Part shown: positions 22,886 to 44,400 of the stretch, in pieces
Position numbering within the stretch: the stretch's first letter is position 1
Layout: every line of letters begins with the position of its first letter
Source of the DNA: Henricia sp. BOLD:AAB3569
Lineage: Eukaryota; Echinodermata; Asteroidea; Spinulosida; Echinasteridae
Reading direction: 5' to 3'
NCBI GenBank assembly: GCA_037783545.1
Contig: JBBELK010000481.1
Coordinates: 1 to 64,000, forward strand
DNA length: 64,000 bases
Program-made: the position numbers and the translations under genes
The notes under the pieces: model-generated
Seen by the model: the letters and a program-made list of their open reading frames with translations, nothing else
Database searches by the model: none
Told to the model about the DNA's origin: nothing

Positions 22886-25800
22886 CAGACTTTCGCCGGG
22901 AAATGGCTGAGAAATTTTAGAGTTTAGGAAAAAAAGGGGTTGGCGCTTCCTGGATGCTCCCGCAACCTGTGGCTGTCTGTACACACCTCTTTGGTGTACT
23001 CCTGACTCGTGCGCATGCTCAGTCCTTCGGACTGTCGTTGACACGGCCCAGTTTGGGACGGGATTTTGGTCAAAGTGTGGTCCAAACGTCGGCAAATTTG
23101 GAGGTCGAAAAATTTTCCGACGAACTTCAAATTGTGCATGCTCCAAAGACTCTATATTGCGCACTTGTCCTAAAAAATTGACAGACTTTCGCCCGGAAAT
23201 GACAGAGAAATTTCAGAGTTTAGGAAAAAAGGGGTTGGCGCTTCCTGGATGCTCCCGCAACCTGTGCCTGTCTGTACACACCTCTTTGGTGTACTCCTGA
23301 CAAGTGCGCATGCTCAGTCCTTCGGACTGTCGTTGACACGGCCCAGTTTGGGACGGGATTTTGGTCAAAGTGTGGTCCAAACGTCGGCAAATTTGGAGGT
23401 CGAAAAATTTTCCGACGAACTTCAAATTTTGCATGCTCCAAAGACTCTATATTGCGCACTTGTCCTAAAAAATTGACAGACTTTCGCCGGGAAATGACAG
23501 AGAAATTTCAGAGTTTAGGAAAAAAGGGGTTGGCGCTTCCTGGATGCTCCCGCAACCTGTGGCTGTCTGTACACACCTCTTTGGTGTACTCCTGACTCGT
23601 GCGCATGCTCAGTCCTTCGGACTGTCGTTGACACGGCCCAGTTTGGGACGGGATTTTGGTCAAAGTGTGGTCCAAACGTCGGCAAATTTGGAGGTGGAAA
23701 AATTTTCCGACGAACTTCAAATTTTGCATGCTCCAAAGACTCTATATTGCGCACTTGTCCTAAAAAATTGACAGACTTTCGCCGGGAAATGGCAGAGAAA
23801 TTTTAGAGTTTAGGAAAAAAAGGGGTTGGCGCTTCCTGGATGCTCCCGCAACCTGTGGCTGTCTGTACACACCTCTTTGGTGTACTCCTGACTCGTGCGC
23901 ATGCTCAGTCCTTCGGACTGTCGTTGACACGGCCCAGTTTGGGACGGGATTTTGGTCAAAGTGTGGTCCAAACGTCGGCAAATTTGGAGGTCGAAAAATT
24001 TTCCGACGAACTTCAAATTGTGCATGCTCCAAAGACTCTATATTGCGCACTTGTCCTAAAAAATTGACAGACTTTCGCCCGGAAATGACAGAGAAATTTC
24101 AGAGTTTAGGAAAAAAAGGGGTTGGCGCTTCCTAGATGCTCCCGCAACCTGTGGCTGTCTGTACACACCTATTTGGTGTACTCCTGACTCGTGCGCATGC
24201 TCAGTCCTTCGGACTGTCGTTGACACGGCCCAGTTTGGGACGGGATTTTGGTCAAAGTGTGGTCCAAACGTCGGCAAATTTGGAGGTCGAAAAATTGTCC
24301 GACGAACTTCAAATTTTGCATGCTCCAAAGACTCTATATTGCGCACTTGTCCTAAAAAATTGACAGACTTTCGCCGGGAAATGGCAGAGAAATTTCAGAG
24401 TTTAGGAAAAAAGGGGTTGGCGCTTCCTGGATGCTCCCGCAACCTGTGGCTGTCTGTACACACCTCTTTGGTGTACTCCTGACAAGTGCGCATGCTCAGT
24501 CCTTCGGACTGTCGTTGACACGGCCCAGTTTGGGACGGGATTTTGGTCAAAGTGTGGTCCAAACGTCGGCAAATTTGGAGGTCGAACAATTTTCCGACGA
24601 ACTTCAAATTTTGCATGCTCCAAAGACTCTATATTGCGCACTTGTCCTAAAAAATTGACAGACTTTCGCCGGGAAATGACAGAGAAATTTCAGAGTTTAG
24701 GAAAAAAGGGGTTGGCGCTTCCTGGATGCTCCCGCAACCTGTGGCTGTCTGTACACACCTCTTTGGTGTACTCCTGACTCGTGCGCATACTCAGTCCTTC
24801 GGACTGTCGTTGACACGGCCCAGTTTGGGACGGGATTTGGGTCAAAGTGTGGTCCAAACGTCGGCAAATTTGGAGGTGGAAAAATTTTCCGACGAACTTC
24901 AAATTTTGCATGCTCCAAAGACTCTATATTGCGCACTTGTCCTAAAAAATTGACAGACTTTCGCCGGGAAATGGCAGAGAAATTTCAGAGTTTAGGAAAA
25001 AAAGGGGTTGGCGCTTCCTGGATGCTCCCGCAACCTGTGGCTGTCTGTACACACCTCTTTGGTGTACTCCTGACAAGTGCGCATGCTCAGTCCTTCGGAC
25101 TGTCGTTGACACGGCCCAGTTTGGGACGGGATTTTGGTCAAAGTGTGGTCCAAACGTCGGCAAATTTGGAGGTCGAAAAAATTTCCGACGAACTTCAAAT
25201 TTTGCATGCTCCAAAGACTCTATATTGCGCACTTGTCTTAAAAATTGACAGACTTTCGCCGGGAAATGACAGAGAAATTTCAGAGTTTAGGAAAAAAAGG
25301 GGTTGGCGCTTCCTGGATGCTCCCGCAACCTGTGGCTGTCTGTACACACCTCTTTGGTGTACTCCTGACTCGTGCGCATGCTCAGTCCTTCGGACTGTCG
25401 TTGACACGGCCCAGTTTGGGACGGGATTTTGGTCAAAGTGTGGTCCAAACGTCGGCAAATTTGGAGGTGGAAAAATTTTCCGACGAACTTCAAATTTTGC
25501 ATGCTCCAAAGACTCTATATTGCGCACTTGTCCTGAAAAAAATTGACAGACTTTCGCCGGGAAATGACAGAGAAATTTCAAAGTTTAGGAAAAAAAGGGT
25601 TTGGCGCTTCCTGGATGCTCCCGCAACCTGTGGCTGTCTGTACACACGTCTTTGGTGTACTCCTTACTCGTGCGCATGCTCAGTCCTTCGGACTGTCGTT
25701 GACACGGCCCAGTTTGGGACGGGATTTTGGTCAAAGTGTGGTCCAAACGTCGGCAAATTTGGAGGTCGAAAAATTTTCCGACGAACTTCAAATTTTGCAT

Positions 25801-28800
25801 GCTCCAAAGACTCTATATTGCGCACTTGTGCTAAAAAAATGACAGACTTTGGCCTGGAAATGGCAGAGAAATTTCAGAGTTTAGGAAAAAAAGGGGTTGT
25901 CGCTTCCAGGATGCTCGCCGGGAAATGGCAGAGAAATTTCAGAGTTTAGGAAAAAAAGGGGTTGGCGCTTCCTGGATGCTCCCGCAACCTGTGGCTGTCT
26001 GTACACACCTCTTTGGTGTACTCCTGACTCGTGCGCATGCTCAGTCCTTCGGACTGTCGTTGACAAGGCCCTGTTTGGGACGGGATTTTGGTCAAAGTGT
26101 GGTCCAAACGTCGGCAAATTTGGAGGTCGAAAAATGTTCCGACGAACTTCAAATTTTGCATGCTCCAAAGACTCTATATTGCGCACTTGTCCTAAAAAAT
26201 TTACAGACTTTCGCCAGGAAATGACAGAGAAATTTCAGAGTTTAGGAAAAAAGGGGTTGGCGCTTCCTGGATGCTCCCGCAACCTGTGGCTGTTTGTACA
26301 CACCTCTTTGGTGTACTCCTGACTCGTGCGCATGCTCAGTCCTTCGGACTGTCGTTGACACGGCCCAGTTTGGGACGCGATTTTGGTCAAAGTGTGGTCC
26401 AAACGTCGGCAAATTTGGAGGTCGAAATATTTTCCGACGAACTTCAAATTTTGCATGATCCAAAGACTCTATATTGCGCACTTGTCCTAAAAAATTGACA
26501 GACTTTCGCCGGGAAATGACAGACAAATTTCAGAGTTTAGGAAAAAAAGGGGTTGGCGCTTCCGGATGCTCCCGCAACCTGTGGCTGTCTGTACACACCT
26601 CTTTGGTGTACTCCTGACTCGTGCGCATGCTCAGTCCTTCGGACTGTCGTTGACACGGCCCAGTTTGGGACGGGATTTTGGTCAAAGTGTGGTCCAAACG
26701 TCGGCAAATTTGGAGGTCGAAAAATTTTCCGACGAACTTCAAATTTTGCATGCTCCAAAGACTCTATATTGCGCACTTGTCCTAAAAAATTGACAGACTT
26801 TCGCCGGGAAATGGCAGAGAAATTTCAGAGTTTAGGGAAAAAAGGGGTTGGCGCTTCCTGGATGCTCCCGCAACCTGTGGCTGTCTGTACACACCTCTTT
26901 GGTGTACTCCTGACTCGTGCGCATGCTCAGTCCTTCGGACTGTCGTTGACACGGCCCAGTTTGGGACGGGATTTTGGTCAAAGTGTGGTCCAAACGTCGG
27001 CAAATTTGGAGGTCGAAAAATTTTCCGACGAACTTCAAATTTTGCATGCTTCAAAGACTCTATATTGCGCACTTGTCCTAAAAAATTGACAGACTTTCGC
27101 CGGGAAATGGCAGAGAAATTTCAGAGTTTAGGGAAAAAAAGGGGTTGGCGCTTCCTGGATGCTCCCGCAACCTGTGGCTGTCTGTACACACCTCTTGGGT
27201 GTACTCCTGACTCGTGCGCATGCTCAGTCCTTCGGACTGTCGTTGACACGGCCCAGTTTGGGACGGGATTTTGGTCAAAGTGTGGTCCAAACGTCGGCAA
27301 ATTTGGAGGTCGAAAAATTTTCCGACGAACTTCAAATTTTGCATGCTCCAAAGACTCTATATTGCGCACTTGTCCTAAAAAATTGACAGACTTTCGCCGG
27401 GAAATGACAGAGACATTTCAGAGTTTAGGTAAAAAGGGGTTGGCGCTTCCTGGATGCTCCCGCAACCTGTGGCTGTCTGTACACACCTCTTTGGTGTACT
27501 CCTGACTCGTGCGCATGCTCAGTCCTTCGGACTGTCGTTGACACGGCCCAGTTTGGGACGGGATTTTGGTCAAAGTGTGGTCCAAACGTCGGCAAATTTG
27601 GAGGTCGAAAAATGTTCCGACGAACTTCAAATTTTGCATGCTCCAAAGACTCTATATTGCGCACTTGTCCTAAAAAATTTACAGACTTTCGCCAGGAAAT
27701 GACAGAGAAATTTCAGAGTTTAGGAAAAAAAGGGGTTGGCGCTTCCTGGATGCTCCCGCAACCTGTGGCTGTTTGTACACACCTCTTTGGTGTACTCCTG
27801 ACTCGTGCGCATGCTCAGTCCTTCGGACTGTCGTTGACACGGCCCAGTTTGGGACGCGATTTTGGTCAAAGTGTGGTCCAAACGTCGGCAAATTTGGAGG
27901 TCGAAAAATTTTCCGACGAACTTCATATTTTGCATGCTCCAAAGACTCTATATTGCGCACTTGTCCTAAAAAATTGACAGACTTTCGCCGGGAAATGGCA
28001 GAGAAATTTCAGAGTTTAGGAAAAAAAGGGGTTGGCGCTTCCTGGATGCTCCCGCAACCTGTGGCTGTCTGTACACACCTCTTTGGTGTACTCCTGACTC
28101 GTGCGCATGCTCAGTCCTTCGGACTGTCGTTGACACGGCCCAGTTTGGGACGGGATTTTGGTCAAAGTGTGGTCCAAACGTCGGCAAATTTGGAGGTCGA
28201 AAAATTTTCCGACGAACTTCAAATTTTGCATGCTCCAAAGACTCTATATTGCGCACTTGTCCTAAAAAATTGACATACTTTCGCCGGGAAATGACAGAGA
28301 AATTTCAGAGTTTAGGAAAAAAAGGGGTTGGCGCTTCCTGGATGCTCCCGCAACCTGTGGCTGTCTGTACACACCTCTTTGGTGTACTCCTGACTCGTGC
28401 GCATGCTCAGTCCTTCGGACTGTCGTTGACACGGCCCAGTTTGGGACGGGATTTTGGTCAAAGTGTGGTCCAAACGTCGGCAAATTTGGAGGTCGAAAAA
28501 TTTTCCGACGAACTTCAAATTTTGCATGCTCCAAAGACTCTATATTGCGCACTTGTCCTGAAAAAAATTGACAGACTTTCGCCGGGAAATGACAGAGAAA
28601 TTTCAGAGTTTAGGAAAAAAAGGGGTTGGCGCTTCCTGGATGCTCCCGCAACCTGTGGCTGTCTGTACACACGTCTTTGGTGTACTCCTTACTCGTGCGC
28701 ATGCTCAGTCCTTCGGACTGTCGTTGACACGGCCCAGTTTGGGACGGGATTTTGGTCAAAGTGTGGTCCAAACGTCGGCAAATTTGGAGGTCGAAAAATT

Positions 28801-28875
28801 TTCCGACGAACTTCAAATTTTGCATGCTCCAAAGACTCTATATTGCGCACTTGTGCTAAAAAAATGACAGACTTT

Positions 28876-28940
28876 CGCCGGGAAATGGCAGAGAAATTTC
28901 AGAGTTTAGGAAAAAAAGGGGTTGGCGCTTCCAGGATGCT
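28876..28940 (+). repeat. 65-bp partial monomer duplication (marker)
   Basis: A segment from CGCCGGGAAATGG to CCAGGATGCT is followed directly by a second CGCCGGG start at 28941, so the monomer restarts early. The same junction, GATGCTCGCCGGG, also occurs at about 25911-25923 (second copy starting 25916) and at about 43000-43012 (second copy starting 43005). All three descend from one slippage or unequal-exchange event and trace block copying across the transposon. Confidence 0.88.
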
Positions 28941-31186
28941 CGCCGGGAAATGGCAGAGAAATTTCAGAGTTTAGGAAAAAAAGGGGTTGGCGCTTCCTGG
29001 ATGCTCCCGCAACCTGTGGCTGTCTGTACACACCTCTTTGGTGTACTCCTGACTCGTGCGCATGCTCAGTCCTTCGGACTGTCGTTGACAAGGCCCTGTT
29101 TGGGACGGGATTTTGGTCAAAGTGTGGTCCAAACGTCGGCAAATTTGGAGGTCGAAAAATGTTCCGACGAACTTCAAATTTTGCATGCTCCAAAGACTCT
29201 ATATTGCGCACTTGTCCTAAAAAAATTGACAGACTTTCGCCGGGAAATGACAGACAAATTTCAGAGTTTAGGAAAAAAAGGGGTTGGCGCTTCCGGATGC
29301 TCCCGCAACCTGTGGCTGTCTGTACACACCTCTTTGGTGTACTCCTGACTCGTGCGCATGCTCAGTCCTTCGGACTGTCGTTGACACGGCCCAGTTTGGG
29401 ACGGGATTTTGGTCAAAGTGTGGTCCAAACGTCGGCAAATTTGGAGGTCGAAAAAATTTTCGACGAACTTCAAATTTTGCATGCTCCAAAGACTCTATAT
29501 TGCGCACTTGTCCTAAAAAATTGACAGACTTTCCCTGGGAAATGGCAGAGAAATTTCAGAGTTTAGGGAAAAAAGGGGTTGGCGCTTCCTAGATGCTCCC
29601 GCAACCTGTGGCTGTCTGTACACACCTATTTGGTGTACTCCTGACTCGTGCGCATGCTCAGTCCTTCGGACTGTCGTTGACAAGGCCCTGTTTGGGACGG
29701 GATTTTGGTCAAAGTGTGGTCCAAACGTCGGCAAATTTGGAGGTCGAAAAATGTTCCGACGAACTTCAAATTTTGCATGCTCCAAAGACTCTATATTGCG
29801 CACTTGTCCTAAAAAATTTACAGACTTTCGCCAGGAAATGACAGAGAAATTTCAGAGTTTAGGAAAAAAAGGGGTTGGCGCTTCCTGGATGCTCCCGCAA
29901 CCTGTGGCTGTTTGTACACACCTCTTTGGTGTACTCCTGACTCGTGCGCATGCTCAGTCCTTCGGACTGTCGTTGACACGGCCCAGTTTGGGACGCGATT
30001 TTGGTCAAAGTGTGGTCCAAACGTCGGCAAATTTGGAGGTCGAAATATTTTCCGACGAACTTCAAATTTTGCATGATCCAAAGACTCTATATTGCGCACT
30101 TGTCCTAAAAAATTGACAGACTTTCGCCGGGAAATGACAGACAAATTTCAGAGTTTAGGAAAAAAAGGGGTTGGCGCTTCCGGATGCTCCCGCAACCTGT
30201 GGCTGTCTGTACACACCTCTTTGGTGTACTCCTGACTCGTGCGCATGCTCAGTCCTTCGGACTGTCGTTGACACGGCCCAGTTTGGGACGGGATTTTGGT
30301 CAAAGTGTGGTCCAAACGTCGGCAAATTTGGAGGTCGAAAAATTTTCCGACGAACTTCAAATTTTGCATGCTCCAAAGACTCTATATTGCGCACTTGTCC
30401 TAAAAAATTGACAGACTTTCGCCGGGAAATGGCAGAGAAATTTCAGAGTTTAGGGAAAAAAGGGGTTGGCGCTTCCTGGATGCTCCCGCAACCTGTGGCT
30501 GTCTGTACACACCTCTTTGGTGTACTCCTGACTCGTGCGCATGCTCAGTCCTTCGGACTGTCGTTGACACGGCCCAGTTTGGGACGGGATTTTGGTCAAA
30601 GTGTGGTCCAAACGTCGGCAAATTTGGAGGTCGAAAAATTTTCCGACGAACTTCAAATTTTGCATGCTTCAAAGACTCTATATTGCGCACTTGTCCTAAA
30701 AAATTGACAGACTTTCGCCGGGAAATGGCAGAGAAATTTCAGAGTTTAGGGAAAAAAAGGGGTTGGCGCTTCCGGGATGCTCCCGCAACCTGTGGCTGTC
30801 TGTACACACCTCTTGGGTGTACTCCTGACTCGTGCGCATGCTCAGTCCTTCGGACTGTCGTTGACACGGCCCAGTTTGGGACGGGATTTTGGTCAAAGTG
30901 TGGTCCAAACGTCGGCAAATTTGGAGGTCGAAAAATTTTCCGACGAACTTCAAATTTTGCATGCTCCAAAGACTCTATATTGCGCACTTGTCCTAAAAAA
31001 TTGACAGACTTTCGCCGGGAAATGACAGAGACATTTCAGAGTTTAGGAAAAAAGGGGTTGGCGCTTCCTGGATGCTCCCGCAACCTGTGGCTGTCTGTAC
31101 ACACCTCTTTGGTGTACTCCTGACTCGTGCGCATGCTCAGTCCTTCGGACTGTCGTTGACACGGCCCAGTTTGGGACGGGATTTTG

Positions 31187-31195
31187 GTCAAAGTG
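31187..31195 (+). repeat. Target site duplication, left copy
   Basis: GTCAAAGTG belongs to the satellite monomer (normal context GGTCAAAGTGTGGTCC) and occurs again directly after the right end of the element. A 9-bp duplication fits Mutator-like elements (8-11 bp) and is atypical of TTAA-, TA- or 4-bp-type superfamilies. Confidence 0.9.
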
Positions 31196-31310
31196 TAGTC
31201 TTGGTGCAAGACGATACTGACCGCCGCGAGAGGGCGCCATACACTTTACTATGAGGACAGGAAACCAGTCTACGTCCGTGCCTGCAGTATCGTCTTGGGA
31301 CAAATCCTGA
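31196..31310 (+). repeat. Left terminal inverted repeat (115 bp)
   Basis: This is identical along its whole length to the reverse complement of 37673-37787. It contains its own dyad: CAAGACGATACTG at 31207-31219 and CAGTATCGTCTTG at 31285-31297, 65 bp apart. The element therefore has four copies of the same 13-mer near its ends, a plausible set of transposase-binding sites (inference). The middle has a GC-rich stretch, CCGCCGCGAGAGGGCGCC. Confidence 0.95.
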
Positions 31311-32110
31311 CTGTTGGTATGTGACACCATGTGACCTTTGACCTAAGCTTATACATATGCATTAAGAGGTCAATTTCACCTGGCATAATGAGACTGCCAG
31401 TCTGGCAACTTGCAAAAAAAGGTGGGAGGGTAAAGTTCTGACGACATGGTGTGACATGTAGTCTGTCTAGTGTCATCATGTGTACAATGTATGCGATCGA
31501 TCGATCGATCGTTGTTGTGTCTTATCACGGAGGTAGGAAAAGATGTCTAGTGCAGTCTGTTGTGAACTGTGTAAACAAATAAACTGCCAAGTTATAATTA
31601 AAGTTTAAACAACCATGCCGCCAAGGTGCACTCCAGTTTACTCCATGTGGCCGTGAACACACGTGGACGGACGGACCTGCCCTGGATGGGAAAAAGCATT
31701 AAAATGTTGCCAAAAGATTTGCAGAACAACAATGCATTTTGGTTTATGCCAGGGGCTCTACTCCTGCCCCTGTTGTGAAGCACGTTTTTTTTAGCAATAA
31801 TTTATACTCAAACATCATTGTTTTTTCCTTACAATGACTTACATGTATTAGGCATCAATAAGTGCAAATCCAATGGAAAACCAAAGGATTTTAGTGCAGC
31901 AGGGCTTATGTGATGTCCGACTTGTAAATTCTTTCGGTCAGCGAGACCGAGAATCAACAGAGAGTAGGAAACATGGGTTGGTGCGAAAGAGCAGTTTAAG
32001 AGATGATGTTTATTAGGTTTAAACGCAAGAACGTTTTCCCAGATGCACTCACAAATTTGGATAAGAATGAAGTTGACCATAAATATTTTCGCCCATAAAA
32101 TGACTGATTT
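31311..32110. other. Transposon interior, no gene seen
   Basis: This AT-rich stretch just inside the left TIR has no frame longer than about 83 codons and no recognisable protein similarity. It holds a perfect AGGTCA-type direct repeat on the minus strand at 31332-31344 (TGACCTTTGACCT on plus) and a 17-bp GATC microsatellite at 31495-31511. It may be a decayed coding half of the element, but nothing in the sequence shows that. Confidence 0.6.
31495..31511. repeat. (GATC)n microsatellite
   Basis: A perfect 17-bp GATC tetranucleotide run. Confidence 0.85.
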
Positions 32111-32478
32111 TTAAAGGAGCGTGACCAGAGTTTCTGGAAAATAGTTTTCGATGTAACTTACCAATATTATCAAGTAACTCCCATACACACCTCCCATGTC
32201 CCAAAAACCCGAAAACATTCGCAATTTCCAGTAAAAAATTTAACAAAACTATTGAGTATGCTTTTAGCGGATAAACGTTGATACTGGAAAATTAGTTTAC
32301 AAATAATCGGTGGATTTTCGACGATATCCTCGGAAATATGCGGCCTAGAAGCGCGGGAGTTTCAGTTTCGTAATCAAAAAAAATATAACGGATGTTATGA
32401 TATAAAAATCTCATGACCCATAAGGTAAGTCCCGGGGAGTTATGGGTAAAAAAAAATGATCTGGTCACACTCCTTTAA
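32111..32478. mobile_element. TTAA-flanked MITE nested in the transposon
   Basis: TTAA at 32111-32114 and 32475-32478 flank a 360-bp segment with short inverted ends: AGGAGCGTGACCAGA on the left, and TCTGGTCACACTCCT on the right, whose complement is AGGAGTGTGACCAGA. The ends match with one difference, and the TTAA duplication is characteristic of piggyBac and Kolobok superfamilies. There is no coding capacity. I infer a non-autonomous element that inserted into an ancestor of the larger transposon. Confidence 0.75.
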
Positions 32479-32566
32479 GCATTAGATTTGATAGAAAAAC
32501 GCAAATATTTTCTGGTCAACTCTTCTTTCCCTAGAGAGTTCCGGTGTTTTTAAGGTTTGTCTTCAT

Positions 32567-32679
32567 TGGCGGATCCAGCCTCATTAAAATACAGAAATAC
32601 AGGAATACAAAGAAAACGCAGGGCTATAGCCCACTGAAATCCATTCTATTCCTGTATTTGAATGAGGCTGGATCCACCA
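32567..32679. mobile_element. Short inverted-repeat (MITE-like) hairpin
   Basis: TGGCGGATCCAGCCTCATT at 32567-32585 pairs with AATGAGGCTGGATCCACCA at 32661-32679, with one mismatch. Inner parts (AAATACAGGAAT and ATTCCTGTATTT) also pair, around a central GGGCTATAGCCC. The ends resemble hAT-type termini, but the flanking GTCTTCAT and CTAGTCTTGAT give only an imperfect, displaced duplication, so the superfamily is uncertain. Confidence 0.6.
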
Positions 32680-33190
32680 CTAGTCTTGATGGTCTTTGTC
32701 ATTAAACGCTGGAGTGTAAAGTCCTGAATAATTTGAAATTACCACTGGTATTTCATGACGTGACCGGGTCGGCAACACTTGGAGTCAACCGCTCCCGTGA
32801 CTAACATTGCCAGAACGTGTTTACCGGTACACATCCTCTGCCTGGATGTGTGGTCGTAAATCCATTTTTTTTGTTCACTAAACACTAGGAGGTTTGCATG
32901 TAAAACGTGAATGTGAAATGGCTTGAACCCAGGTTCGAATTTTGGTCACGGCAAAAGAGTTATCTTGCCACGAAAGTCACATTTGTGGATTTTTGTTTTC
33001 GTCTGTTGTAAGGTTTCCTCAAAGTAACGACCAAGTGCTCACAGCATTCCATGTTCGCATTTTACGTGCATCTAATCATTCATATTATGTCCTTGCATCA
33101 CAACCCTACTTCATTTACATGGTGCTACATGTAGAACCATGGACAAAGGAAATCCACAGGCTCAACTGAGGGTGACAGTTGCAATAGGAG
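32680..33190. other. Transposon interior, no gene seen
   Basis: A plus-strand frame of 75 codons at 32942-33169 resembles no protein I know and has no coding features. A GGTTCGAAT motif at 32932-32940 resembles part of a tRNA-type B box, but no A box or tRNA fold is visible upstream. Confidence 0.5.
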
Positions 33191-33328
33191 ATTTTTGAGA
33201 CGCATGTGGCAGTAAACAAACCAGTCCTTCATTATTTACGTCACATTGGAGCTATAAAGTGTGCATGCTCAATGTGACAAACAATAGAAAAGGACCGGTT
33301 TGTTTGATGCCAACATGTTTCTCAAAAG
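33191..33328. mobile_element. Imperfect inverted repeat, MITE-like
   Basis: The left arm (TTTTTGAGACGCATGTGGCA, AACAAACCAGTCCTT, GTCACATTG) pairs in order with the right arm (CAATGTGAC, AAGGACCGGTTTGTT, TGCCAACATGTTTCTCAAAA). About 20 bp of loop (GAGCTATAAAGTGTGCATGC) lies between the arms. A GGGTGAC motif outside the left arm and GTCACCC outside the right suggest that the repeat extends further. No coding capacity. Confidence 0.55.
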
Positions 33329-33624
33329 TCACCCATTCCCGAAACAACAGATATTGTGCTGAACTTGGCCCGCTGAAAATCAGATACAAGCTTCATAAAG
33401 TACATGTACATAGCAATTGCAGCTACATGTACTTTGTGTAGCATGAGCGCCACCATTTTGTTTAGAAAATTTGTAGACAGCTCCGTCGTGTACTCCTTTT
33501 GCAGAAATACGTAGTTATTGAGATTCTGAAATAATTTATCGCAGGATGACACATATTCAGTGTCTAAAGTTCAAAGTATGTTTTTTCGTTTAAAGGCACA
33601 GGCTCGTCACCAATGCATGAGCAC
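33329..33624. other. Non-coding stretch with small palindromes
   Basis: It contains an inverted pair ATAAAGTACATGTA (about 33395) and TACATGTACTTTGT (about 33424) around GCAATTGC, and no open frame of note. Confidence 0.5.
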
Positions 33625-33689
33625 CAAATTCGTGCCACGAAATATGCAGCTCCATGCCATGGAGCTGCGTATTTTATGGCACGAATTTG
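33625..33689. repeat. Near-perfect 65-bp palindrome
   Basis: CAAATTCGTGCCACGAAATA and ATGCAGCTCCATG on the left pair with CATGGAGCTGCGT and TATTTTATGGCACGAATTTG on the right across a single central base (33657), with only a few mismatches. It could form a long hairpin or cruciform. It may be a foldback element or a chance remnant; a pre-miRNA is unlikely without a normal terminal loop. Confidence 0.7.
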
Positions 33690-34664
33690 TTGAGAACCAC
33701 AGACTGTATATCTTTAAACAAACAAAACTTCATACAAAACTACATAGTTTATTTTTATACAACCAGAACAGACTTTACAGTTTTAAGTGAATAATTATAC
33801 CATGTGTTGGGGCATGGAGGTACGAAAAGTTATGGTTGGGGTTAGCACACTCGAGAAATAATGAGTTTGTTTGCATTTTTAACTGTACAGTATACTGGTA
33901 CTTTAAGATTGGAATTAACAAGAAACTAATGGGGCCTACATTAAATACAATGTATTTATAAGTAAGTAAATATTGCATGTGAAAAACTTCTGGTCTTTAT
34001 CATCCTTCGCTAAGAATGAGTAAACGGGCTCAGGTGTTTCACAAAAATTCACATGTACATGTACATGGAAATACGTATTGTGCTTATGTGCTATTTACAT
34101 GTAGTTGTAAATTTCATTGTATAATACAAGCCCATGACACTACTTGATTTCCAAAGTAAACGTTTACATTCACTGACTCATACATGTAGGTGACATTTAT
34201 GCAAATTGCAACAGGGAAAAAACATTGGCTGTCACACATGTTTAAATTTGACATTGGCAGATTGTAAATACATAGTTAAATGGTTAAAATTGTGTACAAC
34301 AAACTGGCGTACATGTAGCATGGGTAACATCATTTCAAAACGAACACTGGCTACTTGCAAGGCAGTCATGTTTTCCGTAAAAAAGTCACAATTGTTAAAA
34401 TTTCTATTTAAATTACTATTAACTATCTAAAAGTGTACATGGCATTACCTAAGTTGTATAAATCAATCACAGCAGCTATAGAGCATTGTCAATGATCGTG
34501 TACGGCATGCCTCAATACATGTATTTATATGCTTCATAAAAGATTTCCCACATCTACTAAATTCACTATTAGTAAGAAACATAAATCAAATATCGCAAAC
34601 TTTATACACCTGTGAAACTTGGATCAACTACAGTACAGTACTGTAACTGTCCAATCACTCCACA
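33690..34664. other. Transposon interior, AT-rich, no gene seen
   Basis: About 1 kb without convincing coding frames. It contains ACATGTACATGTACATGG-type repeats near 34051-34069, a motif common in several marine invertebrate genomes. Confidence 0.5.
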
Positions 34665-34825
34665 TAGACCTTATTGCAAATAACGCTTGGGTGAGTTTTT
34701 ACAAAAGCAGCAATGTATTGTGGGAAGGTTTTCGGGGCAGACTTTGCCCCGTTTTCCTTCCCACAATACAGTTGTGCTTTTGTGCAGACTTGCCCAAGGG
34801 GTATTACTATTAGCGATAAGGTCTA
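34665..34825. mobile_element. MITE-like inverted repeat, TA-flanked
   Basis: The outer arms TAGACCTTATTGCAAATAA and TTAGCGATAAGGTCTA and the inner arms TGTATTGTGGGAAGG and CCTTCCCACAATACA (plus CGGGGCA with TGCCCCG) make a 161-bp imperfect hairpin. The outer TA on both sides fits a TA duplication (Tc1/mariner-like), but two bases are weak evidence. It lies downstream of the predicted poly(A) signal of the helicase gene. Confidence 0.65.
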
Positions 34826-34927
34826 TTACTCCCCATTACTCACCACCACCCCCCGCCCCCCACTACACACAGACACCATTTGTTTAAAAGTAGCATTTGT
34901 ACGCTAAGAAAAAACATGCATCAAGGA

Positions 34928-34933
34928 TTTAAT
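34928..34933 (-). terminator. Possible poly(A) signal ATTAAA
   Basis: ATTAAA on the minus strand, about 83 bp past the helicase stop codon. It is the common variant of AATAAA. No canonical AATAAA is nearer, and the assignment is tentative. Confidence 0.35.
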
Positions 34934-35015
34934 AAAAATGGAAACACTTCAACCCGTTTCATGTGTTTTGTATTATGTACACAAGGTCTGAAGCAGTGGT
35001 CAGCTACTTAATAAT

Positions 35016-37480
35016 TTAATCACTACCAGTACTGCTAGATCCAAATTGTGGTTCAGCATACTCGCCACCCAAGGGGTCCTCGAAAGAATCTGATGCAGTG
35101 CTGTTGTCGCTTTCCAACTCTGACAATGGTCCCTTGTCTGGTGACTGGACACTCGAGTCATATATTTCAGTTTTCATGACTTGCCATACTTGTGATGCAA
35201 TCTCTTTGCGTGCAAAAGCATATCGATCACAGAAGTCATCAAAAGGAAACACGATGTGACATTCATTGACTACTTCTGTTATTGTGGAGTCTGACAAGCC
35301 ACAGGCAATACCCTCGCTTGTGTACATGTGGCTGCTGCTGTCTGCCAGTAACGTTTGTTTGTACTCCTGTAGATGTTCCTTTAATTGTGTTACCAGACTT
35401 TGTGGCACCGTCACAATTAGATATTCAGCCGATGTTGACTGTCCATGAAGCAGAGCATCTCGCATTTGCTTTTCAGCATAGGAGTGTTTACCAGAGCATT
35501 CGCTTCCATCACAAGCACATGTCTGGGCACAAACGTCGCAACAATCATGTTTTATCATTGAGGCATCAGTGTCAGTGTCGCTTCTTGCTGGTGAAGGGAA
35601 GTTTTTCTTGATAACAAGCCGTCTGCACTTGCTTCCCTCTACAAAAGCTTTCATAGCATCGCTTGTTTTCCCACCAAGCCCACCACCACGATACTTAACA
35701 AGGAGTGCCAAACTCTGGGCTCCATCACGGCCTGCCCTCCCGCTCAACTGCATCAAGTCATCTAGATGTGATGGGTGACCTACCAATATTACTGTGTGAA
35801 GACCACACACATCAATCCCTAGACCGAATGCAATCGTAGCAAACAAAATGCGCACCTCTCCATCTTCTCGTGAAAAACTGTCAATGATTTTTCGTTGTAC
35901 GTCAGCTTCCGTATTTGTGTGGTACATTTCAAAGTAACGATGCAGCTCCTTCGGAAGAAGAAAACGGAAGAGAGAATGAAGTTCACTGACAACTCTGCGA
36001 GATTGACAGTATAGAATGATTCTCTCCATGGAACCGCCTCTCTCATTGATCCCCTGTGCCATCCATTTAAACATGGCTTCAAAGTTCTTGTCGTCAGACT
36101 TCAGAACAACATACTTGATGTTCAAGCGTTCAGGGCTCTCCTCTATCATGCCATAATTCCGGAGTGCCAAGCTCTCAACAATCGTTTGTCTCACTTTCAC
36201 AGTTGCAGTGGCTGTCAAAGCTACAACGCGGGTAGTGGGTTTCACCAAAGATCGCAAATCTCCAAGTCGACCATAGCACTTGCGGAATACTGTGCTCTCT
36301 TTTGATGAATGACCCCTGTAAATAAAAGAAAACAAAAATTAAATGTTATCGTACAAGTAAATTAAGCTCAAACTGAATTCACACGAAGACATTCATATTC
36401 ACGCTAAGACATTCATTCTTGAGTACATTGTACAATGTAACTTCAACTTGCAAGAAAAAGTGGATATATGGGAACCAGTCTATTAGTATTGGTACACCCG
36501 ACCTTTGACGTGCATTGTGCGCAGAAAACTCCGAAAAGATTCATTGATGAATGTTTTCCTCTCAAAATGATTAATATACAACTAATGAATTGTTATGAAT
36601 GCAATGGGAGGAATATTTTCATGAGGTGAAAGATGGAATGTTACATTCAACGAGGAGAAGCCGAGTTAAATGGAACATATTCCATCTTTCACCGAAAGAA
36701 AATGATAATCATTTTTGTGTGCTAAAACAAACAAAGTGCTTTTTTTTTACACTGAAATTTTGCACAAACATAGACAACAATCTCCCCAAACTGTCGCTGG
36801 TTTCACAACTGGACCAGAAATCTCACCGTCAAACTAACATCTTGCTGTGTTCCATTTTTAATATTAAAAAATAACGTTTTAAAAATAAATATCGTCAGAA
36901 AGCATGGAAAGTTTATCATTTATTTTCAGTATCTATTACAAAAGTTGGAATTGAACAAAGCTGTTCCCAGTGGTTTAGACCTAACCTACCATTTTGATAC
37001 GCAGTGACTTTCGTCAACAAAGATTCCGCAGCATCTACTTTTCACCGACTGAAGTAGCTCCTTCCCCTTAGGTCCGCAAAGGGTCTCTGGGCTGGCAAAT
37101 AATATGGAATACTTGTCTGCTTGCTCAATGACACAATCCGGAATGACCGAGGTGATGTCGGCTGCCGCTACACCGAGCCGACTTACTCGTTCTAACTGGT
37201 TCACCGCCAGAGCCTTCAGCGGGAGAACCACAATGACAAGAGCATGGTCGCCGTCGTTCGTACTAGTTTTTCCCTCAGTCTCAGGCCCGTCTTGCAAAAA
37301 ATCCACAACAAATGGAGCAGCTTGAAATATCACGCTTTTCCCGAAACCGGTAGGTAGATTAATAAACAAATCACTGCCCTGTGCGAATTGCCGGAGAGCA
37401 TTTATTTGGTGGCTTTTCAGTTTCTCAAATCCTAATTTCCTGGCAGCAAAGTCAATAGCGTCGTCCACGCTAGCCGACAT
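35016..37480 (-). CDS. RecQ-family DNA helicase, two exons, transposon-borne
   Basis: The predicted protein has 596 residues: exon 1 at 37480-36990 (163 codons plus two bases), intron 36989-36316, exon 2 at 36315-35016 ending in TAA. The splice joins TG to G within Trp164 and restores the RecQ motif SKWGH. SF2/RecQ signatures in order are: motif 0 around Phe18-Gln25; Walker A PTGFGKS at 43-49; motif Ia near 83-96; DESH at 156-159 instead of the usual DEAH; ALTATAT at 196-202; LYCQSRR near 265-271; ATIAFGLGID at 323-332; QLSGRAGRDG at 353-362. A zinc-binding subdomain follows, with CRR at 394-396 and CCDVC at 422-426. No winged-helix RQC or HRDC domain is visible, and the last ~35 residues are acidic and serine-rich. 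The family unwinds DNA 3' to 5' using ATP. The start at 37480 fits the usual family N-terminus and has A at -3; an in-frame ATG at 37549 is an alternative. No frameshift or premature stop was found. Confidence 0.88.
36316..36989 (-). other. Intron of the RecQ-like gene (674 bp)
   Basis: The donor is ATG|GTAGGT at 36989 and the acceptor is TTTATTTACAG|GGG at 36316, preceded by a T-rich tract. Splicing keeps the frame through the conserved tryptophan. The intron holds a MITE-like inverted repeat (36614-36704), a perfect 16-bp palindrome TACATTGTACAATGTA (36424-36439) and a short direct repeat AAGACATTCAT (36386 and 36406). An intron means the gene was not acquired by retroposition. Confidence 0.85.
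36614..36704. mobile_element. MITE-like inverted repeat in the intron
   Basis: TATTTTC, then GGTGAAAGATGGAAT, on the left pair with ATTCCATCTTTCACC, then GAAAGAAAAT, on the right. The central CGAGGAGAAGCCGAG is part of the fold. No clear target duplication was seen. Confidence 0.55.
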
Positions 37481-37672
37481 TTTTTCTGAAGCAAGTGCAG
37501 TTAGTACATGTACATTATAGCTTTCCCTGTTTGTACCGTAGATGTGCATATTAGACGTACAGGTACCAGACTGCACAGCGCTGGGCTTAACTTATGTTAA
37601 TAAGCTCCACGTCATAGGTATGCATGGCATAATGAGCAATGCGTGGAATGCGCTCGGAATTTCCCGAGCGAT
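37481..37672 (-). promoter_or_regulatory. Probable 5' region and promoter of the RecQ-like gene
   Basis: Only about 190 bp separate the predicted start codon from the right TIR, so the promoter must lie here or in the TIR if the gene has its own. There is no TATA box at a convincing place. On the minus strand there is a CRE-like TGACGTGG at 37614-37607. A 7-bp-stem hairpin, CGCTCGG and CCGAGCG, lies at 37651-37670 just inside the TIR. Confidence 0.35.
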
Positions 37673-37787
37673 TCAGGATTTGTCCCAAGACGATACTGCA
37701 GGCACGGACGTAGACTGGTTTCCTGTCCTCATAGTAAAGTGTATGGCGCCCTCTCGCGGCGGTCAGTATCGTCTTGCACCAAGACTA
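37673..37787 (-). repeat. Right terminal inverted repeat (115 bp)
   Basis: This is the exact reverse complement of 31196-31310, with the internal 13-mers at 37686-37698 and 37764-37776. It lies upstream of the helicase gene, so it may also provide part of its promoter (inference). Confidence 0.95.
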
Positions 37788-37796
37788 GTCAAAGTG
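37788..37796 (+). repeat. Target site duplication, right copy
   Basis: The second GTCAAAGTG follows the terminal GACTA of the element and continues into TGGTCCAAACG, the normal satellite sequence. Joining the left flank to this point restores a standard monomer. Confidence 0.9.
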
Positions 37797-39090
37797 TGGT
37801 CCAAACGTCGGCAAATTTGGAGGTCGAAAAATGTTCCGACGAACTTCAAATTTTGCATGCTCCAAAGACTCTATATTGCGCACTTGTCCTAAAAAATTTA
37901 CAGACTTTCGCCAGGAAATGACAGAGAAATTTCAGAGTTTAGGAAAAAAAGGGGTTGGCGCTTCCTGGATGCTCCCGCAACCTGTGGCTGTTTGTACACA
38001 CCTCTTTGGTGTACTCCTGACTCGTGCGCATGCTCAGTCCTTCGGACTGTCGTTGACACGGCCCAGTTTGGGACGCGATTTTGGTCAAAGTGTGGTCCAA
38101 ACGTCGGCAAATTTGGAGGTCGAAAAATTTTCCGACGAACTTCATATTTTGCATGCTCCAAAGACTCTATATTGCGCACTTGTCCTAAAAAATTGACAGA
38201 CTTTCGCCGGGAAATGGCAGAGAAATTTCAGAGTTTAGGAAAAAAAGGGGTTGGCGCTTCCTGGATGCTCCCGCAACCTGTGGCTGTCTGTACACACCTC
38301 TTTGGTGTACTCCTGACTCGTGCGCATGCTCAGTCCTTCGGACTGTCGTTGACACGGCCCAGTTTGGGACGGGATTTTGGTCAAAGTGTGGTCCAAACGT
38401 CGGCAAATTTGGAGGTCGAAAAATTTTCCGACGAACTTCAAATTTTGCATGCTCCAAAGACTCTATATTGCGCACTTGTCCTAAAAAATTGACAGACTTT
38501 CGCCGGGAAATGACAGAGAAATTTCAGAGTTTAGGAAAAAAAGGGGTTGGCGCTTCCTGGATGCTCCCGCAACCTGTGGCTGTCTGTACACACCTCTTTG
38601 GTGTACTCCTGACTCGTGCGCATGCTCAGTCCTTCGGACTGTCGTTGACACGGCCCAGTTTGGGACGGGATTTTGGTCAAAGTGTGGTCCAAACGTCGGC
38701 AAATTTGGAGGTCGAAAAATTTTCCGACGAACTTCAAATTTTGCATGCTCCAAAGACTCTATATTGCGCACTTGTCCTAAAAAATTGACAGACTTTCGCC
38801 GGGAAATGACAGAGACATTTCAGAGTTTAGGAAAAAAGGGGTTGGCGCTTCCTGGATGCTCCCGCAACCTGTGGCTGTCTGTACACACCTCTTTGGTGTA
38901 CTCCTGACTCGTGCGCATGCTCAGTCCTTCGGACTGTCGTTGACACGGCCCAGTTTGGGACGGGATTTTGGTCAAAGTGTGGTCCAAACGTCGGCAAATT
39001 TGGAGGTCGAAAAATTTTCCGACGAACTTCAAATTTTGCATGCTCCAAAGACTCTATATTGCGCACTTGTCCTAAAAAATTGACAGACTT

Positions 39091-41275
39091 TTGCCGGGAA
39101 ATTACAGAGAAATTTCAGAGTTTAGGAAAAAAAGGGGTTGGCGCTTCCTGGATGCTCCCGCAACCTGTGGCTGTCTGTACACACCTCTTTGGTGTACTCC
39201 TGACTCGTGCGCATGCTCAGTCCTTCGGACTGTCGTTGACACGGCCCAGTTTGGGACGGGATTTTGGTCAAAGTGTGGTCCAAACGTCGGCAAATTTGGA
39301 GGTCGAACAATTTTCCGACGAACTTCAAATTTTGCATGCTCCAAAGACTCTATATTGCGCAATTGTCCTAAAAAATTGACAGACTTTCGCCGGGAAATGG
39401 CAGAGAAATTTCAGAGTTTAGGAAAAAAAGGGGTTGGCGCTTCCTGGATGCTCCCGCAACCTGTGGCTGTCTGTACACACCTCTTTGGTGTACTCCTGAC
39501 TCGTGCGCATGCTCAGTCCTTCGGACTGTCGTTGACACGGCCCAGTTTGGGACGGGATTTTGGTCAAAGTGTGGTCCAAACGTCGGCAAATTTGGAGGTC
39601 GAAAAATGTTCCGACGAACTTCAAATTTTGCATGCTCCAAAGACTCTATATTGCGCACTTGTCCTAAAAAATTTACAGACTTTCGCCAGGAAATGACAGA
39701 GAAATTTCAGAGTTTAGGAAAAAAAAGGGGTTGGCGCTTCCTGGATGCTCCCGCAACCTGTGGCTGTTTGTACACACCTCTTTGGTGTACTCCTGACTCG
39801 TGCGCATGCTCAGTCCTTCGGACTGTCGTTGACACGGCCCAGTTTGAGACGCGATTTTGGTCAAAGTGTGGTCCAAACGTCGGCAAATTTGGAGGTCGAA
39901 AAATTTTCCGACGAACTTCATATTTTGCATGCTCCAAAGACTCTATATTGCGCACTTGTCCTAAAAAATTGACAGACTTTCGCCGGGAAATGGCAGATAA
40001 ATTTCAGAGTTTAGGAAAAAAAGGGGTTGGCGCTTCCTGGATGCTCCCGCAACCTGTGGCTGTCTGTACACACCTCTTTGGTGTACTCCTGACTCGTGCG
40101 CATGCTCAGTCCTTCGGACTGTCGTTGACACGGCCCAGTTTGGGACGGGATTTTGGTCAAAGTGTGGTCCAAACGTCGGCAAATTTGGAGGTCGAAAAAT
40201 TTTCCGACGAACTTCAAATTTTGCATGCTCCAAAGACTCTATATTGCGCACTTGTCCTAAAAAATTGACAGACTTTTGCCGGGAAATTACAGAGAAATTT
40301 CAGAGTTTAGGAAAAAAAGGGGTTGGCGCTTCCTGGATGCTCCCGCAACCTGTGGCTGTCTGTACACACCTCTTTGGTGTACTCCTGACTCGTGCGCATG
40401 CTCAGTCCTTCGGACTGTCGTTGACACGGCCCAGTTTGGGACGGGATTTTGGTCAAAGTGTGGTCCAAACGTCGGCAAATTTGGAGGTCGAACAATTTTC
40501 CGACGAACTTCAAATTTTGCATGCTCCAAAGACTCTATATTGCGCAATTGTCCTAAAAAATTGACAGACTTTCGCCGGGAAATGGCAGAGAAATTTCAGA
40601 GTTTAGGAAAAAAAGGGGTTGGCGCTTCCTGGATGCTCCCGCAACCTGTGGCTGTCTGTACACACCTCTTTGGTGTACTCCTGACTCGTGCGCATGCTCA
40701 GTCCTTCGGACTGTCGTTGACACGGCCCAGTTTGGGACGGGATTTTGGTCAAAGTGTGGTCCAAACGTCGGCAAATTTGGAGGTCGAAAAATGTTCCGAC
40801 GAACTTCAAATTTTGCATGCTCCAAAGACTCTATATTGCGCACTTGTCCTAAAAAATTTACAGACTTTCGCCAGGAAATGACAGAGAAATTTCAGAGTTT
40901 AGGAAAAAAAAGGGGTTGGCGCTTCCTGGATGCTCCCGCAACCTGTGGCTGTTTGTACACACCTCTTTGGTGTACTCCTGACTCGTGCGCATGCTCAGTC
41001 CTTCGGACTGTCGTTGACACGGCCCAGTTTGAGACGCGATTTTGGTCAAAGTGTGGTCCAAACGTCGGCAAATTTGGAGGTCGAAAAATTTTCCGACGAA
41101 CTTCATATTTTGCATGCTCCAAAGACTCTATATTGCGCACTTGTCCTAAAAAATTGACAGACTTTCGCCGGGAAATGGCAGATAAATTTCAGAGTTTAGG
41201 AAAAAAGGGGTTGGCGCTTCCTGGATGCTCCCGCAACCTGTGGCTGTCTGTACACACCTCTTTGGTGTACTCCTG
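39091..41275 (+). repeat. Higher-order repeat: two 1185-bp tetramers
   Basis: Four monomers starting at 39091 recur at 40276. Shared private markers are TTTTGCCGGGAAATTACAG, GTCGAACAATT, GCGCAATTGTCC, GTTTGAGACGCG and GGCAGATAAATTTC. Confidence 0.88.
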
Positions 41276-41440
41276 ACTCGTGCGCATGCTCAGTCCTTCG
41301 GACTGTCGTTGACACGGCCCAGTTTGGGACGGGATTTTGGTCAAAGTGTGGTCCAAACGTCGGCAAATTTGGAGGTCGAAAAATTTTCCGACGAACTTCA
41401 AATTTTGCATGCTCCAAAGACTCTATATTGCGCACTTGTC

Positions 41441-44400
41441 CTAAAAAATTGACAGACTTTCGCCGGGAAATGACAGAGAAATTTCAGAGTTTAGGAAAAA
41501 AAGGGGTTGGCGCTTCCTAGATGCTCCCGCAACCTGTGGCTGTCTGTACACACCTATTTGGTGTACTCCTGACTCGTGCGCATGCTCAGTCCTTCGGACT
41601 GTCGTTGACAAGGCCCTGTTTGGGACGGGATTTTGGTCAAAGTGTGGTCCAAACGTCGGCAAATTTGGAGGTCGAAAAATGTTCCGACGAACTTCAAATT
41701 TTGCATGCTCCAAAGACTCTATATTGCGCACTTGTCCTAAAAAATTTACAGACTTTCGCCAGGAAATGACAGAGAAATTTCAGAGTTTAGGAAAAAAAGG
41801 GGTTGGCGCTTCCTGGATGCTCCCGCAACCTGTGGCTGTTTGTACACACCTCTTTGGTGTACTCCTGACTCGTGCGCATGCTCAGTCCTTCGGACTGTCG
41901 TTGACACGGCCCAGTTTGGGACGCGATTTTGGTCAAAGTGTGGTCCAAACGTCGGCAAATTTGGAGGTCGAAATATTTTCCGACGAACTTCAAATTTTGC
42001 ATGATCCAAAGACTCTATATTGCGCACTTGTCCTAAAAAATTGACAGACTTTCGCCGGGAAATGACAGACAAATTTCAGAGTTTAGGAAAAAAAGGGGTT
42101 GGCGCTTCCGGATGCTCCCGCAACCTGTGGCTGTCTGTACACACCTCTTTGGTGTACTCCTGACTCGTGCGCATGCTCAGTCCTTCGGACTGTCGTTGAC
42201 ACGGCCCAGTTTGGGACGGGATTTTGGTCAAAGTGTGGTCCAAACGTCGGCAAATTTGGAGGTCGAAAAATTTTTCGACGAACTTCAAATTTTGCATGCT
42301 CCAAAGACTCTATATTGCGCACTTGTCCTAAAAAATTGACAGACTTTCGCCGGGAAATGGCAGAGAAATTTCAGAGTTTAGGGAAAAAAGGGGTTGGCGC
42401 TTCCTGGATGCTCCCGCAACCTGTGGCTGTCTGTACACACCTCTTTGGTGTACTCCTGACTCGTGCGCATGCTCAGTCCTTCGGACTGTCGTTGACACGG
42501 CCCAGTTTGGGACGGGATTTTGGTCAAAGTGTGGTCCAAACGTCGGCAAATTTGGAGGTCGAAAAATTTTCCGACGAACTTCAAATTTTGCATGCTTCAA
42601 AGACTCTATATTGCGCACTTGTCCTAAAAAATTGACAGACTTTCGCCGGGAAATGGCAGAGAAATTTCAGAGTTTAGGGAAAAAAGGGGTTGGCGCTTCC
42701 TGGATGCTCCCGCAACCTGTGGCTGTCTGTACACACCTCTTGGGTGTACTCCTGACTCGTGCGCATGCTCAGTCCTTCGGACTGTCGTTGACACGGCCCA
42801 GTTTGGGACGGGATTTTGGTCAAAGTGTGGTCCAAACGTCGGCAAATTTGGAGGTCGAAAAATTTTCCGACGAACTTCAAATTTTGCATGCTCCAAAGAC
42901 TCTATATTGCGCACTTGTGCTAAAAAAATGACAGACTTTCGCCGGGAAATGGCAGAGAAATTTCAGAGTTTAGGAAAAAAAGGGGTTGGCGCTTCCAGGA
43001 TGCTCGCCGGGAAATGGCAGAGAAATTTCAGAGTTTAGGAAAAAAAGGGGTTGGCGCTTCCTGGATGCTCCCGCAACCTGTGGCTGTCTGTACACACCTC
43101 TTTGGTGTACTCCTGACTCGTGCGCATGCTCAGTCCTTCGGACTGTCGTTGACAAGGCCCTGTTTGGGACGGGATTTTGGTCAAAGTGTGGTCCAAACGT
43201 CGGCAAATTTGGAGGTCGAAAAATGTTCCGACGAACTTCAAATTTTGCATGCTCCAAAGACTCTATATTGCGCACTTGTCCTAAAAAATTTACAGACTTT
43301 CGCCAGGAAATAACAGAGAAATTTCAGAGTTTAGGAAAAAAAGGGGTTGGCGCTTCCTGGATGCTCCCGCAACCTGTGGCTGTTTGTACACACCTCTTTG
43401 GTGTACTCCTGACTCGTGCGCATGCTCAGTCCTTCGGACTGTCGTTGACACGGCCCAGTTTGGGACGCGATTTTGGTCAAAGTGTGGTCCAAACGTCGGC
43501 AAATTTGGAGGTCGAAATATTTTCCGACGAACTTCAAATTTTGCATGATCCAAAGACTCTATATTGCGCACTTGTCCTAAAAAATTGACAGACTTTCGCC
43601 GGGAAATGACAGACAAATTTCAGAGTTTAGGAAAAAAAGGGGTTGGCGCTTCCGGATGCTCCCGCAACCTGTGGCTGTCTGTACACACCTCTTTGGTGTA
43701 CTCCTGACTCGTGCGCATGCTCAGTCCTTCGGACTGTCGTTGACACGGCCCAGTTTGGGACGGGATTTTGGTCAAAGTGTGGTCCAAACGTCGGCAAATT
43801 TGGAGGTCGAAAAATTTTCCGACGAACTTCAAATTTTGCATGCTCCAAAGACTCTATATTGCGCACTTGTCCTAAAAAATTGACAGACTTTCGCCGGGAA
43901 ATGACAGAGAAATTTCAGAGTTTAGGAAAAAAAGGGGTTGGCGCTTCCTAGATGCTCCCGCAACCTGTGGCTGTCTGTACACACCTATTTGGTGTACTCC
44001 TGACTCGTGCGCATGCTCAGTCCTTCGGACTGTCGTTGACAAGGCCCTGTTTGGGACGGGATTTTGGTCAAAGTGTGGTCCAAACGTCGGCAAATTTGGA
44101 GGTCGAAAAATGTTCCGACGAACTTCAAATTTTGCATGCTCCAAAGACTCTATATTGCGCACTTGTCCTAAAAAAATTACAGACTTTCGCCAGGAAATGA
44201 CAGAGAAATTTCAGAGTTTAGGAAAAAAAGGGGTTGGCGCTTCCTGGATGCTCCCGCAACCTGTGGCTGTTCGTACACACCTCTTTGGTGTACTCCTGAC
44301 TCGTGCGCATGCTCAGTCCTTCGGACTGTCGTTGACACGGCCCAGTTTGGGACGCGATTTTGGTCAAAGTGTGGTCCAAACGTCGGCAAATTTGGAGGTC

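Follow-up and report, generated by a model that had tools for sequence, protein, structure and literature searches.

The stretch of DNA analysed here (the window) comprises the first 64,000 nucleotides of contig C481 (JBBELK010000481.1) in the 740.7-Mb assembly GCA_037783545.1 of the starfish Henricia sp. BOLD:AAB3569. It carries a mobile element whose recognisable gene encodes a RecQ-type helicase, and which is embedded in a 296-bp satellite array found on both flanks within the scanned positions 25000-45000 (Table 1). The terminal inverted repeats (TIRs), the 9-bp target-site duplication and the two-exon gene for a 596-residue RecQ-core helicase, all claimed in an earlier note on this DNA, were confirmed. 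Both TIR arms are 115 nt long and 100% complementary to each other, and the window holds two occurrences of their 24-bp terminus vs none in any of 100 shuffles (at most 3 mismatches allowed).

The helicase matches the Pfam models DEAD (9.8e-17), Helicase_C (8.6e-16) and ResIII (1.9e-06). RQC and HRDC, domains found in many but not all RecQ helicases, gave no Pfam match up to E 1. The protein has a RecQ-type core as judged by its match to the NCBIfam model recQ_fam TIGR00614 (1.8e-57, 195 bits, which is below the cut-off of 219.8) and by the top solved structure, Bloom syndrome protein (BLM), which aligns to residues 13-369 (3.5e-29). The helicase had been described as the only visible gene of the element. 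This holds for the window, where the longest other stop-to-stop frame within the element is at most 113 amino acids, and fails for the complete two-gene elements described below.

Table 1. Features of the helicase-bearing element and its surroundings in the window.
Feature	Position	Strand	Remarks
Target-site duplication, left copy	31187..31195	+	GTCAAAGTG, 9 bp
Target-site duplication, right copy	37788..37796	+	GTCAAAGTG, 9 bp, identical to left
Left TIR	31196..31310	+	115 bp; end away from helicase start; begins TAGTCTTG
Right TIR	37673..37787	-	115 bp; helicase-side end
Helicase exon 1	36990..37480	-	start codon, Walker A GFGKS, DESH box
Helicase intron	36316..36989	-	GT..AG; predicted from sequence
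Helicase exon 2	35016..36315	-	motifs III-VI, CRR..CCDVC cysteines (by eye), stop codon
Left segment unmatched in the 16 kb fetched of C62	31196..31734		probable deletion junction at ~31734
Left 296-bp satellite array	25000..31195		25000 is the scan start, not the array start
Right 296-bp satellite array	37788..45000		45000 is the scan end, not the array end

Copies of the element and their ends

A genome search with the 115-bp TIR gave 259 candidates, of which 40 were scored, all being 99-100% identical. These 40 places belong to 14 helicase-bearing and 13 helicase-free elements. Two readable ends were found in 13 of the 14 helicase-bearing copies, while L031 has a rearranged end and stands outside the duplication count. 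The two-ended copies are 5.8-9.2 kb long, and every one (13/13, window included) is flanked by a duplication of exactly 9 bp, with 10 distinct duplication sequences among them. That the window element is a transposon, as the earlier note had claimed, is thus borne out by multiple copies with matching TIRs and 9-bp duplications.

Amplification of the surrounding satellite, rather than transposition, could also multiply an element. The window copy does lie in satellite, and four copies (L009, L010, L012 and L018) share one duplication, TCATTCGGA, in a setting that looks like the same satellite; these four may have been made in this way. The other nine two-ended copies, however, have nine duplication sequences, and for two of them a related empty site exists, as the joined flanks match uninterrupted repeat copies (L019, 16 rows at 80-92%; L011, 40 of 40 listed rows at 93-97%). 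As an explanation for the family as a whole, satellite amplification is therefore refuted and extremely unlikely to hold, even if it may still apply to the four copies with TCATTCGGA.

Satellite-like flanks, apparently of the same array type, surround these four copies and also the two-gene element C1387 described below, which suggests that the satellite is a preferred landing place, or a site of amplification, for elements of the window type and their relatives. Next to one further copy (L017, on C2), at most 210 bp into its right flank, there is a terminus of the C1387 type (TAGTCTTGATGCAAGACC...), so a related element inserted nearby.

Elements with the same ends and no helicase are common. 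A pattern search with the 24-bp terminus (at most 2 mismatches) gave 485 genome matches, and none with the reversed control. The first 100 matches listed include 34 head-to-head pairs, of which 10 span 130-251 bp, 18 span 1.2-3.7 kb, one 5.3 kb, three 6.6-6.7 kb and two more than 11 kb. The 13 helicase-free elements that were fetched are mostly 2.24 kb long (nine of 2236-2257 bp), with longer examples of 3.0 kb (L029), 2.7 kb (L030) and 4.0 kb (L032), and one (L034) outside the lengths covered by the script. A 9-bp duplication was found by script in 12 of the 13 and by eye in L034, which has CCTATTCCA on both sides and one changed base in its terminus. No frame above 109 amino acids occurs in L022, the one helicase-free element for which frames were listed. 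As these 9-bp duplications show, elements with the window termini and no helicase have moved as well. Among the outcomes that would refute its reading, the earlier note had named TIR-bearing copies with unrelated genes. In part this is what was found, as most measured TIR elements are helicase-free (13 of the 27 fetched elements, and 31 of the 34 listed pairs differ from the 6.6-kb size).

Four different ends were compared: the TIR of the window, the other end of L022 (2.24 kb) and the two ends of C1387. All follow a common plan. They start with TAGTCTT, have a terminal hairpin of 15-17 nt and contain a AGAGGGCG box; some 80-110 nt further in, 8-13 nt of near-terminal sequence recur as an inverted copy. 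In the left TIR of the window the inverted copy repeats the 13-mer from TIR positions 12-24. Between ends, the stems of the hairpins vary in sequence while pairing is kept (by eye), and the two ends of C1387 have only the TAGTCTT start, the hairpin and the AGAGGGCG box in common. Against 300 dinucleotide shuffles of each end, 6, 16, 3 and 1 shuffles reached a predicted energy as low. Hairpin stability alone is not distinctive, because two of 20 internal 115-mers, taken as controls, were more stable than any of the four ends. The plan may represent paired inverted binding sites or a hairpin that is extruded, and would be compatible with an end-opening helicase. Both window TIRs also contain a CCGCGAGAGGGCGCC box (31224-31238 and 37745-37759), as both C1387 ends contain CCGCCAGAGGGCG; this box may resemble the CTCF core motif.

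Two-gene relatives and a convergent DUF6589 gene

The element at C1387:69033-85342 (16.3 kb) extends from TAGTCTTTCGG to CATCAAGACTA and is flanked by the duplication AGCCACAGG. It encodes on one strand a helicase 58% identical to that of the window, and convergent to it a second gene whose C-terminal exon matches DUF6589 (PF20231; 7.6e-21), with C2H2-finger matches that fall below their cut-offs. A second copy occupies another site (C752:429051-446596, 17.5 kb) within the 9-bp duplication GCTTCGAAG. Both two-gene elements read to both ends thus have TAGTCTT..AAGACTA termini and 9-bp duplications (2/2).

The pairing of the two genes extends across the genome. Searching with helicase exon 2 gave 77 matches, and searching with a DUF6589 exon (other than the exon of C1387 matched by Pfam) gave 52. 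Outside the window family there are 26 long helicase loci (at least 390 of 440 residues), 31-58% identical and free of internal stops; several of these are fully or almost identical, as haplotypes or duplications, leaving about twelve families. Of the 77 rows, 50 helicase loci were entered in a script, omitting the 14 family copies and 13 additional rows for loci already included; the script found a convergent downstream DUF6589 match within 30 kb for 28 of the 50; three further convergent pairs seen by eye (C1852, C226 and C1317) raise this to 31 of 50. For 18 of the 50, mostly short fragments, inspection by eye gave no DUF6589 match within 30 kb. Among the long loci, 24 of 26 have a convergent DUF6589 match a few kb downstream (23 by script, plus C1852). 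The DUF6589 match at C226:413357-414922 lies in a stop-free frame of 1072 amino acids, with its convergent helicase fragment at 411166-411621.

Run on this genome, the Pfam model of DUF6589 gives 62 matches; 14 control genomes gave none. Comparison of a DUF6589 exon with viral contigs gave 8 stretches that fit a pattern, none of which encoded a relative, and PHROGs gave four weak matches to one of two DUF6589 exons and none to the other. No paper on DUF6589 was found in a limited literature search, and a role published elsewhere is possible.

An older relative of the window family lies on C62; its helicase is 91-96% identical to that of the window over its two larger pieces. It matches the window element piecewise at 91-98% up to ~31734, and beyond that point a DUF6589 gene follows on the other strand; the unmatched segment of the window corresponds to positions 6055-6592 of the reverse-complemented element. 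Other repeats interrupt the C62 copy, and the second deletion breakpoint was not seen in the 16 kb fetched. At C62:790233, about 8 kb outside the helicase, there is an exact and correctly oriented terminus that may be the outer end of this element. The C62 DUF6589 frame scores 27.5 bits against PF20231, vs a cut-off of 27, and 78.6 bits across a stop; a search of the PDB with this frame returned only two weak zinc-finger matches. Beside DUF6589, frames resembling a reverse transcriptase and a tyrosine recombinase (L039:4567-7675) have the look of a DIRS-type retroelement by eye.

The simplest reading of the C62 comparison is that the window family lost its DUF6589 gene by internal deletion while keeping both ends. 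In our view the window element is very probably a non-autonomous, internally deleted derivative of an AcademH-like two-gene DNA transposon, which spread recently with a transposase from elsewhere. The complete element would carry convergent genes, a RecQ-core helicase near one end and DUF6589, the presumed transposase of DDE type, near the other. A deletion would have taken out the transposase gene and spared both ends and the helicase gene, and the derivative would then have spread by cut-and-paste with 9-bp staggered insertions, the transposase being supplied from elsewhere. The helicase could open the hairpin-bearing ends or assist gap processing during transposition. This reading builds on the ends, the 9-bp duplications, the multiple insertions, the two related empty sites, the convergent pairing and an older DUF6589-bearing relative, all of which are observed. 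From these we infer the transposase role of DUF6589, its action in trans on the window family, and loss rather than gain as the direction of change. An autonomous helicase transposon is not supported.

Several points weigh against this reading. The transposase role of DUF6589 is putative. The DUF6589 of C62 is probably defective, because its frame carries one stop and matches the profile from position 193 only (that of C1387 also matches at 70-159), and the outer ends of C62 lie beyond the 16 kb examined. The assembly yielded no intact transposase closely related to the C62 one: the nearest match, at C229, is a 93% fragment with its other part decayed, and identities elsewhere do not exceed 64% except in short fragments (68-70%). 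The mobilising enzyme is thus unseen; it may be absent, unassembled, or a distant DUF6589 protein that works across families. The pairing also has exceptions. At C38 the DUF6589 match lies upstream of the helicase on the same strand, a convergent helicase match is missing for 10 of the 38 DUF6589 loci in the script, and both long helicase loci on C154 are without a DUF6589 match within 30 kb. Neither a TIR nor DUF6589 was seen at the C154 locus that was fetched (L040, C154:1185000-1193000). The C154 helicase, 51% identical to that of the window, is encoded in a stop-free exon and occurs at two loci of this contig, 1.1 Mb from each other; it may be a decayed, larger or domesticated copy.

The earlier note had also proposed that part of the multiplication of RecQ-like genes may come from transposons of this type. 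The survey supports this, and it offers a candidate explanation for the numerous RecQ-like genes without RQC and HRDC in this genome, because 24 of the 26 long relatives stand beside DUF6589 and the two loci read to both ends are transposons with 9-bp duplications. The Pfam family DUF6589 gains a candidate function, that of a transposase.

Conservation of the helicase

Between C1387 and C752 there is one change in 1803 coding bases of the helicase vs 28 in 3676 non-coding bases (p 0.0002); judged from this comparison, the helicase is conserved in these two two-gene elements.

The situation differs in the helicase-only family, where coding and non-coding divergence are indistinguishable. Relative to the window copy, substitutions amount to 0.06-0.45% in coding and 0.07-0.62% in non-coding sequence, and the BLAST identity of about 98% between subgroups reflects mostly insertions and deletions. 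Shared variable sites number 5 in 1786 coding vs 21 in 4543 non-coding positions (p 0.39). All coding changes taken together comprise 21 non-synonymous and 12 synonymous ones (p 0.10). A comparison of non-synonymous (dN) and synonymous (dS) divergence among copies had been proposed in the earlier note; it gave no clear evidence of selection, and we make no claim that the helicase of these copies is under selection. The youth of the family is enough to explain why the window helicase is intact.

An alternative is that the helicase-only element keeps its helicase because it is needed in cis or in trans, the family being a helicase-supplying partner of DUF6589 elements. Eight of the 14 helicase frames are open from start to stop, although in-frame deletions occur in two of these (L012 and L015) and a glycine of Walker A is changed in a third (L031). 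Of the 5 coding changes common to at least two copies, one is non-synonymous and four are silent (p 0.016 vs neutral), which leans towards constraint, and between the window and C62 helicases dN is 0.016 and dS 0.041 (529 codons). Against this stand the divergence figures given above and the six broken copies, with frameshifts or stops in L009, L010, L016 and L018, the C-terminal half of exon 2 missing in L011 and the start codon missing in L017. A 15-bp deletion directly behind Walker A is also common to five copies with two different duplication sequences (L009, L010, L012, L016 and L018), and elements of 2.2 kb and 0.13-0.25 kb with the same ends carry no helicase. On balance we regard such a partnership as unlikely.

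Similarly doubtful is the wider proposal that the RecQ helicase works in transposition by opening the hairpin ends with their inverted terminus copy, and that helicase-only elements supply DUF6589 elements in trans. If true, the transposon system would be divided between two kinds of element, and DUF6589 would be a transposase family that has gone unrecognised. The two-gene elements and the helicase-only family offer a natural comparison for the role of RecQ in DNA transposition, the helicase being conserved beside the transposase gene and showing no clear constraint where that gene was lost.

Comparison with known transposons

The AcademH lineage was reportedly defined by Kojima in 2020 (Mob DNA 11:15; PMC7165386), in animals and fungi by the title of that work. 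AcademH elements are described as encoding a helicase and producing target duplications of 9 or 10 bp (PMC10045372), and a RecQ helicase in Academ had been reported earlier (PMC3627910). The elements of this study resemble AcademH in their 9-bp duplications (13/13 helicase-bearing, 13/13 short and 2/2 two-gene copies), in the RecQ-type helicase that they carry, and in their TIRs, which in the window are perfect over 115 bp. The window family differs in having no transposase. In its two-gene relatives the helicase and DUF6589 are separate, convergent genes, which may set them apart from AcademH. We call the group AcademH-like for its duplication length and helicase type.

Long TIRs together with 9-bp duplications are typical of MuDR, a Mutator-like element (MULE), and an element of this kind might have captured a host RecQ gene. 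Duplications of 9 bp are known from MuDR-like elements, and fungal ones that carry Fanzor1 are transposase-less (PMC3627910). These resemble the window element in having an accessory gene, no transposase, TIRs in common with transposase-bearing relatives and 9-bp duplications; the window element differs in that its accessory gene encodes a helicase and that an older relative with two genes was found. However, the partner gene at 24 of the 26 long relatives is DUF6589, and Pfam scans of the partner-gene exons returned no MULE family up to E 1. We consider a MuDR origin very unlikely.

A RecQ helicase is also encoded by KolobokH elements and, in a red alga, by one Kolobok family (PMC9587614), and the two-gene relatives resemble KolobokH in placing such a helicase beside a transposase, here the candidate DUF6589. 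Kolobok duplications, however, are the 4-bp TTAA, and KolobokH is reported from fungi only (PMC9587614). The duplications of the window group are 9 bp long and not TTAA, which refutes a KolobokH-like element and leaves its probability close to nil.

Cellular RecQ helicases such as BLM, WRN and RecQ share the core with the window helicase, as seen in the BLM alignment; the latter differs in giving no Pfam match to RQC or HRDC and in being encoded by transposons. RecQ-like genes borne by transposons are easily annotated as host genes, as has often happened with the recQ_fam genes of fungal Academ elements (PMC6416283). Within this comparison, the window element looks like a transposase-less derivative of an apparently known kind of transposon.

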